From positions 1 to 40,330 of the forward strand of contig JAKANZ010000001.1 of NCBI GenBank assembly GCA_021823435.1: 40,330 nucleotides of DNA, given 5' to 3'. Positions within the stretch are counted from its first letter, which is position 1. Every line of letters starts with the position of its first letter. This document shows, piece by piece, positions 14,244 through 40,237 of this stretch. Origin of the DNA: Microcaldota archaeon (GTDB taxonomy: Archaea > Micrarchaeota > Micrarchaeia > Micrarchaeales > CABMGC01). The translations under genes and the position numbers were made by a program. The notes under the pieces are model-generated. The model did no database searches and was not told where the DNA came from. It was given only the letters and a program-made list of their open reading frames with translations.

Positions 14244-14813
14244 CTATCTGGCCAGCTCCTGCGTATGGACGCCGACGGCGCGATCTATGCTGAAAGAACC
14301 GACGGTAGCCACGAGCCTCTTTCGATGTGTTCCGTTGGTGAACTCCCTCGCCTCTTTCAAAGCATCGTCGACTCCCTTTCTGACCCAGCGCGTGGGCAGC
14401 GGGATGTTTACGCTTCTGATATCGAAACGCCTCATATGAGGAGGACACCTTATGCACGTATACCTGTCGTGGAAGAAGAGCTGCTTCGTCCTCGGGAAAT
14501 ATCCTGAAACGAAAATGTCCGCATCCTTTAGCGTTTCCAGAGCGTCGCTCCTGCGTTTTGTCTTCATCAGGACGTCGTTCAGCCCCTCAATCTCCGCATG
14601 ATTGCTATAGCCCTGTCTTATCTCCCTTTCAAGCCTGAAGTGCGGATGCGATATCGCCCTGTTTTGTCCGGTCCCCACCACAGCTCCGTCTTTTACTATT
14701 ATGCAACCATATCTCTCGTTGTCACTCTTTGACTGCCTCATCAGACCTGCACAGAGCTGATATCTCTTATCTAGCGTTATCGGAGCGATTTCCATGACGT
14801 TTGTCTGCGCCAT
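14244..14813 (-). CDS. cytidine/deoxycytidylate deaminase-fold zinc hydrolase
   Basis: 189 aa. Zinc site: H-A-E in SNHAEIEGLNDVL (about residue 72) with the catalytic Glu, then C-I-R-C in YTCIRCPPHM, matching the H-A-E ... C-x-x-C signature of dCMP/cytidine deaminases. The usual Pro before the first Cys is replaced by Thr and the motif is followed by PPHM. The first strand pair (ERYGCIIVKDGAVVGTGQNR) is normal for the fold. The C-terminal ~60 residues are unassigned. Substrate could be dCMP, a tRNA base or a pathway intermediate. The gene sits 9 nt after the HIT-family gene. Confidence 0.8.
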   Translation of the reverse strand: MAQTNVMEIAPITLDKRYQLCAGLMRQSKSDNERYGCIIVKDGAVVGTGQNRAISHPHFRLEREIRQGYSNHAEIEGLNDVLMKTKRRSDALETLKDADIFVSGYFPRTKQLFFHDRYTCIRCPPHMRRFDIRSVNIPLPTRWVRKGVDDALKEAREFTNGTHRKRLVATVGSFSIDRAVGVHTQELAR

Positions 14814-21538: not shown

Positions 21539-21800
21539 GCAGTAGGGAGGTGGGAAGCTAGGGGTTTCCCATTCCGCAAATCCCCTTCGGCGGGCCGTAT
21601 GCCGTTTGCGTTGCACGCATGCATGTCGGGCCCTCGCCAAAGCGTCGAGGTCTTGCCTCCAGTGGCGGTCTCACGTATGAACCGGGCCAGGCCGGAAGGA
21701 GCAACCCTAAGTATGCGCGGCTGTGCTCTGGAGATACAGGGCTGAGCAGAGGCGTGGACAACTCGGCATGCTTGCCTGCGGCTAGATCGGCTCCTGCTGC
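21539..21800 (+). ncRNA. ffs: 7S signal recognition particle RNA
   Basis: The helix 8 domain is unmistakable at about 21679-21708: GAACC, then GGGCCAGGCCGGAAGGAGCA with the GGAA tetraloop and the asymmetric loop bound by SRP54. Upstream, GGGG ... CCCC and CGGCGGGCCG elements at about 21557-21600 fit Alu-domain helices 3 and 4. The ends can pair (GCAGTAGGGAG at 21539 with CTCCTGCTGC at 21791-21800), giving the archaeal helix 1. Total about 262 nt, a little shorter than typical archaeal 7S RNA (about 300). Ends are predicted by pairing and by the TATA box, so they are approximate. It works with SRP54/SRP19 and SecY in co-translational targeting. Confidence 0.93.
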
Positions 21801-39509: not shown

Positions 39510-40124
39510 TTACTTGACCTTTATGTCTATCTTGGCTTCGAAGTCTGAAACGCTGTGCTTGAATTCGTCGTCGCTCTTTATCAGGCCCTTCTCCTTCATG
39601 AACTCCCTGGCAAGCAGCCAGTAGACAAGGGCTATCGACCTGCGGCTCTTGTTGTTGCAAGGTATGATCATGTCTACGAACTTGATCCAGTTGTCCGTGT
39701 CGCAGAGTGCAACCACCGGCGCGTTTATCTTGCTCGCCTCCTTGACCGCCTGTCTCTCGTTCCTGGTGTCGCTGACGAGCACGATATCTGGCTCAAAGAA
39801 ATCGCTCCTGTTCGGGTTTGTGAATATGCCAGGCATGACCCTGCCTTCAACGAGCCTCACGCCAGTTATCTCAGCGAACTTCTTCGCTGGAGTTATAGCG
39901 TATATTCGCGAAGCTGTCACAGCAATGACCTTCTGGTCGTACCTGGCCAGCATCTTCGCCGCAGCCTTTATCCTCCTGTCCGTATCCTCCATTTTGAGAA
40001 GGTAAAGGCCGTCGCCCCTTCGCTTGTCTATGAACCTGCTCATGCCAGGCGTTCGCACCATCGTTCCCGCCTGTATGTGTGAGTATACGTACTCCTGCCG
40101 GTCCACAAGCATCTCATCGCTCAT
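39510..40124 (-). CDS. rps2: 30S ribosomal protein uS2
   Basis: 204 aa, normal for archaeal uS2. Conserved segments: YVYSHIQAGTMVRTPGMSRFI, DTDRRIKAAAKMLARY, GRVMPGIFTNPNRSDFFEPDIVLVSDTRNERQAVKEA, PVVALCDTDNWIKFVDMIIPCNNKSRRSIALVYWLLAREFM. It binds the 30S head near the platform. Eighteen bases upstream ends an intron-containing tRNA gene; no separate TATA box fits between them, so uS2 is probably read from the tRNA promoter. GGTG lies seven bases before the ATG. Confidence 0.96.
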   Translation of the reverse strand: MSDEMLVDRQEYVYSHIQAGTMVRTPGMSRFIDKRRGDGLYLLKMEDTDRRIKAAAKMLARYDQKVIAVTASRIYAITPAKKFAEITGVRLVEGRVMPGIFTNPNRSDFFEPDIVLVSDTRNERQAVKEASKINAPVVALCDTDNWIKFVDMIIPCNNKSRRSIALVYWLLAREFMKEKGLIKSDDEFKHSVSDFEAKIDIKVK

Positions 40125-40142: not shown

Positions 40143-40237
40143 CGGGGTCGCCGCGATTTCCAGGCAGATGTCTGCCATTTGAACGCGGGTCTTGTGCGCC
40201 CTAGGCACAAAGCCTAACCAAGCTAGCCGACGACCCC
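40143..40237 (-). tRNA. tRNA with 21-nt T-loop intron, predicted anticodon AGG (Pro)
   Basis: Acceptor GGGGTCG pairs perfectly with CGACCCC, discriminator G. Anticodon stem TGTGC/GCACA with loop CTAGGGC gives anticodon AGG with the invariant U33. The T-stem CCGCG/CGCGG encloses TTCAAA, then 21 extra bases (40157-40177), then T. The extra segment forms a bulge-helix-bulge: central helix TTCA/TGGA with 3-nt bulges AAT on opposite strands, and an inner GGCAG/CTGCC hairpin. Splicing restores a normal TTCAAAT loop and a 74-nt tRNA. D-stem is weak (GGCT with GGCT), so identity and anticodon should be verified. Confidence 0.8.

Follow-up and report, generated by a model that had tools for sequence, protein, structure and literature searches.

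The tRNA-Pro locus

The window, an archaeal (Micrarchaeota) DNA stretch of 40,330 nucleotides, is one contig of a 688-kb draft genome (55 contigs, 78% complete). Direct reading of its minus strand gives a tRNA-Pro gene interrupted by a short intron between tRNA positions 59 and 60 (Table 1). The acceptor stem has 7 bp (GGGGTCG/CGACCCC) with discriminator G, the D-stem 3 bp (GCT/GGC), and the anticodon stem 5 bp (TGTGC/GCACA) around the loop CTAGGGC, followed by a variable region of 4 nt and the T-stem CCGCG/CGCGG. The T-stem strands enclose 28 nt instead of 7, in the order TTCA-AAT-GGCAG-ACAT-CTGCC-TGGA-AAT. This is a strict 3-4-3 bulge-helix-bulge (BHB), with TTCA/TGGA as the central helix and one 3-nt AAT bulge on each strand. 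Cuts placed two bases into each bulge would take out the intron and leave the T-loop TTCAAAT in a standard 74-nt cloverleaf, with the layout of the intronless orthologue in the relative G041. An earlier note on this DNA had placed the tRNA and its intron at exactly these coordinates, and the T-stem, central helix, opposed bulges and GGCAG/CTGCC hairpin that it described can all be read on the minus strand.

Table 1. Features at the tRNA-Pro locus of the window
Feature	Position	Strand	Evidence or remark
tRNA-Pro(AGG) gene	40143-40237	-	95 nt with intron, 74 nt spliced; direct reading, Pro covariance model, orthologues in 72 genomes
Exon 1, tRNA positions 1-59	40178-40237	-	60-nt match to congeners; 100% in G001, G006, G007
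Intron, 21 nt, between positions 59 and 60	40157-40177	-	missing in orthologue G041; length and sequence variable elsewhere
Exon 2, tRNA positions 60-73	40143-40156	-	direct reading; comparison with relatives
Central 4-bp BHB helix, 5' strand TTCA, positions 54-57	40180-40183	-	4/4 pairing with intron in 63/63 distinct inserts
Central helix, 3' strand TGGA	40159-40162	-	then 3-nt bulge AAT, 40156-40158; TGAA/TGGA/TGAG across relatives
Intron hairpin GGCAG-ACAT-CTGCC	40163-40176	-	compensatory changes at 5/5 pairs in 18 equal-length introns
Anticodon AGG (A34), loop CTAGGGC	40200-40202	-	A34 in 72/72 family orthologues; sister-family orthologues GGG
Ribosomal protein S2 gene	39510-40124	-	18 nt downstream of tRNA; Pfam PF00318, E 1.8e-19
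Possible promoter element TATAAAAA	40262-40269	-	about 25-32 nt upstream of tRNA; from sequence only

The surroundings of the gene recur in relatives. An S2-like N-terminus lies downstream of the tRNA in 45 of the 51 relatives with enough sequence, as judged by a loose motif, and many relatives also have an A/T-rich stretch upstream of the orthologous tRNA. Elsewhere in the window (21541-21798, plus strand) is an SRP RNA gene that matches the Rfam bacterial large SRP family with 71.7 bits, yet the genome is archaeal.

The tRNA gene is missed by ARAGORN and by the Rfam model RF00005. A proline-tRNA covariance model from relatives matches it end to end with 86.8 bits; the 14 sequences of this model include the spliced form of the window gene, and the match is therefore not independent. 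Single-sequence folding of the locus is moderately better than that of shuffles (z -2.8), and it is the comparative evidence, not this fold, that excludes chance.

Conservation of the T-loop intron

Relatives were retrieved by the alanyl-tRNA synthetase of the window and are nearly all Micrarchaeota MAGs. Orthologues of the tRNA gene were found through the family with the spliced sequence and parsed singly, with duplicated loci counted once; most of the genomes are drafts. An orthologue is present in 72 family genomes, and 69 of these carry the insert at 59/60, either as the only one (53 genomes) or together with a second insert at 53/54 (16 genomes). Two have the 53/54 insert alone and one has none. 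The shortest 59/60 intron has 11 nt and the longest 32 nt. The intronless gene, in G041 (L047), is a contiguous 74-nt orthologue and a natural copy of the predicted spliced product.

The splice motif is constant across this variation. In all 63 distinct inserts at 59/60 the four bases ahead of the last three pair 4/4 with the exon TTCA, leaving a 3-nt 3' bulge, and no shifted register of the central helix does so. The exon side of this helix is invariant because it is the T-loop, and the intron side is limited to TGAA, TGGA and TGAG because of the pairing demand. The 18 distinct introns of 21 nt have a covariation score of 0.518; shuffling lowers it to 0.184, and slid structures do not exceed 0.087. 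Pair cells in this set are standard in 99.6% of cases. Both sides of the pair have changed in 44 cells, where shuffles give 14. Compensatory changes are found in all five pairs of the intron hairpin. Conservation, covariation and the natural intronless orthologue strongly support a BHB intron at 59/60 in a functional tRNA gene. Together with the 3-4-3 geometry, they also bear out the earlier proposal of an exact BHB substrate that leaves a TTCAAAT loop.

A rival reading of the locus is a pseudogene or decayed tRNA gene into whose T-loop a hairpin was inserted by chance, as might be suspected from its being missed by standard finders and from an A34 that is unexpected for archaea. However, the stems are intact, three further species of the genus share all 60 nt of exon 1, and the exact BHB geometry and covariation extend over the 63 distinct inserts. 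In addition, the congener G001 has no other proline tRNA that reads CCU/CCC (see below). On conservation and covariation the pseudogene reading was rejected, and it is very improbable. An equally improbable reading keeps the insert in the mature RNA, as an extension of the T-arm in an unusual tRNA or another small RNA. In favour of this, the hairpin is conserved as a structure, but it sits exactly in the endonuclease motif and the insert varies almost threefold in length. The insert is also missing from G041, G015 and G018, whose T-loop reads TTCAAAT if any 53/54 insert is disregarded.

Noncanonical BHB introns in the D-arm, T-arm and acceptor of archaeal tRNAs have been described in Crenarchaeota, Caldiarchaeum, ARMAN-1 and ARMAN-2 (PMC4033280, PMC6379350, PMC3293823). 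The window intron resembles these in its BHB, which is strict or relaxed among them, its short length and its T-loop placement, and ARMAN-1 and ARMAN-2 likewise have tRNAs with multiple introns. It differs in that one site can be traced across an entire family of Micrarchaeota, in which the intron has been lost in places and in others is joined by a second one at 53/54, with a 6-nt exon between them. The permuted tRNAs of Thermofilum pendens (PMC3218864) share the 59/60 junction with a BHB, whereas the halves of the window tRNA are in normal order around a plain intron.

Tandem introns at 53/54 and 59/60

Where both introns occur in the proline tRNA, the exon between them is TTCAAA. Tandem-intron loci include L058, L062, L063, L065, L148 and L155, and in the sister family L241 and L271-L274. 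At 53/54 the motif has CCCG/CGGG as its helix, flanked by 3-nt bulges, and 4/4 pairs in 16 of 17 distinct cases. T54 is a bulge base in the 53/54 motif and a central-helix base in the 59/60 motif. The two motifs as drawn are thus mutually exclusive, suggesting that removal is ordered, with the 53/54 intron probably excised ahead of the 59/60 intron. Folding of the double-intron T-arms gives no single clear splicing order.

The splicing endonuclease

Of 78 relatives, 74 have the endonuclease family PF01974, in most cases with a strong and a weak match inside a single frame of about 380-450 aa. The G006 protein and the ARMAN-2 epsilon2 EndA (PDB 4FZ2, 9W2K; PMC12397907) align over their full length, with an E-value of 4.8e-141 and about 55% identity. 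The triad Y236, H251 and K282 and the ARMAN-loop lysine K161 are retained in all 23 relatives checked. By these alignments, the congeners encode a three-unit epsilon2 splicing endonuclease. Identity to the ARMAN-2 enzyme is 51-61% in the family of the window and 62-66% in the sister family, so ARMAN-2 looks nearer to the sister family.

The three-unit endonuclease, one of the two types that the earlier note had suggested looking for, is thus present in congeners. A search of the window's own draft, by the Pfam model at relaxed E-value and by a congener protein, did not detect it. This is weak evidence, and is read as a gap in the incomplete assembly, not as absence of the gene. The same note held that a T-loop intron needs an endonuclease of broad specificity. 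The strict 3-4-3 motif of the window intron makes no such demand by itself, and the short and tandem introns of the relatives are better evidence for one. Other tRNAs of the window's own genome are also interrupted by introns, at 37/38 and in the D-arm, in keeping with an active broad splicing system.

Apparent noncanonical introns in the same genome (G000) lie in the D-arm of tRNA-Ile(GAT) and the D-loop of tRNA-Leu(TAA), and a tRNA read as Trp(CCA) has a long insert; the loci are L038 (G000:C16:9825-9895), L040 (G000:C2:23377-23448) and L041 (G000:C24). Two tRNA-like stretches do not fold as whole tRNAs: L213 (G001:C1:56721-56788) seemingly lacks the D-arm, and L039 (G000:C17:23149-23239) has a disrupted T-arm. 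These could be split, interrupted or decayed genes.

A proline tRNA with A34

The more unusual feature of the gene, absent from the earlier note, is its proline anticodon. The 7-nt loop with U33 gives AGG, with G35 and G36, and identifies a tRNA-Pro of the A34 type. All 72 family orthologues have A34, in the loop CTAGGGC in the genus of the window and TTAGGGA in most of the family. Other registers were rejected: positions 32 and 38 of CTAGGGC are unable to pair, and in TTAGGGA the alternative register, with a 32-38 pair, leaves only five loop bases.

In the sister family, 16 orthologues have the anticodon GGG, in the loop TTGGGGT or ATGGGGT, and most of them have the same introns. The 59/60 intron occurs alone in G055, G058, G059, G061, G067, G069, G156 and G169 and with the 53/54 intron in G047, G048, G053, G063 and G068. 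G060 has the 53/54 intron alone, and the genes of G050 and G166 are intronless. The simplest history would start from an intron-bearing GGG tRNA in the shared ancestor of the two families, with A34 replacing G34 at the root of the family of the window. One sister-family genus, g33 (G052, L219; G072, L233), has AGG on a CGG-like tRNA body with the T-loop TCCAAAT, and GGG is not among the best eight model matches in either genome. This suggests a second origin of AGG in g33.

The proline tRNAs of G001 (97% complete) are AGG, UGG and CGG only, based on 45 RF00005 matches and a reading of the intron-bearing gene; this is the one genome in which the absence of GGG was checked fully, and a GGG tRNA with large introns could have been missed there. 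The four-codon boxes of G001 other than proline use G34. CCC is a common codon in the window genes, with 68 CCC and 44 CCT. According to surveys (PMC11066159; PMC6000648, 167 genomes), archaea have no, or almost no, tRNA genes with A34, and in E. coli CCU and CCC are decoded about equally by a proline tRNA with unmodified A34 (PMC11066159). The Mycoplasma tRNA-Thr and the engineered E. coli tRNA-Pro(AGG) (PMC11066159) are similar cases in which unmodified A34 reads a four-codon box. Unlike these, the A34 of the window tRNA is natural, family-wide and archaeal, and replaces GGG.

ARAGORN calls a tRNA-Ile with anticodon UAU at G000:C55:5141-5215 (L005) and at G001:C3:516357-516431 (L172). A tRNA-UAU was reported in only 2 of 167 archaeal genomes (PMC6000648).

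Neither deaminase model, PF00383 or PF14437, has a match in G001, and both match 10 of 10 bacterial controls. Taken with the decoding by the E. coli tRNA, the missing deaminase matches make an unmodified A34 reader plausible. The main rival is that the intron is real and A34 is deaminated to inosine by an unrecognised enzyme, giving an IGG reader as in the eukaryotic proline tRNA. About half of the relatives do have CDA-fold proteins (29 of 59 with PF00383), and the window itself encodes, at 14244-14813 on the minus strand, a small protein with a weak CDA-fold match to PF00383 (26 bits), adjoining a HIT-domain gene. However, A34 is present in all family members, while a CDA-fold deaminase has no match in G001 or in most of them, and NCBIfam does not assign the window protein to TadA. 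Deamination to inosine is accordingly considered unlikely, though less so for those family members, the source of the window included, that encode CDA-fold proteins. As a wobble deaminase the window protein is a poor candidate, given its weak score, the missing TadA match, and its absence from the congener stretches compared. G002, G004 and G005 likewise have weak CDA-fold matches no more than about 15-18 kb from the tRNA.

It is likely, then, that throughout this archaeal family CCU and CCC are read by an A34 proline tRNA that replaced the G34 form, without a TadA-type deaminase. The change would have arisen once at the root of the family, in a tRNA that already had the intron, and a second time in g33, on a CGG-type tRNA that became AGG.

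Proposed mechanism and implications

The locus is very likely a functional archaeal tRNA-Pro gene with a T-loop BHB intron that is cut by an epsilon2 enzyme, and whose AGG product is most likely the sole CCU/CCC reader, with A34 probably unmodified. The transcript would fold into the strict BHB at the T-loop, and an epsilon2-type endonuclease would cut each AAT bulge ahead of its third base to release the 21 nt. A ligase would then join the exons and restore the normal T-loop. The mature tRNA, charged with proline, would decode both codons through A34.

T-loop introns and the epsilon2 enzyme type are already known, and the window intron adds a further, well-documented case to this class, in which about 70 species show drift, loss and tandem occurrence with the splice motif fixed. 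The anticodon matters more than the intron, given that published surveys find A34 absent or nearly so from archaea. The A34 tRNA may have escaped notice because its gene, with the T-loop intron, is missed by standard finders. If true, a family-wide proline tRNA with A34 and no evident deaminase would offer a natural test case for unmodified A34 as the reader of a codon box.
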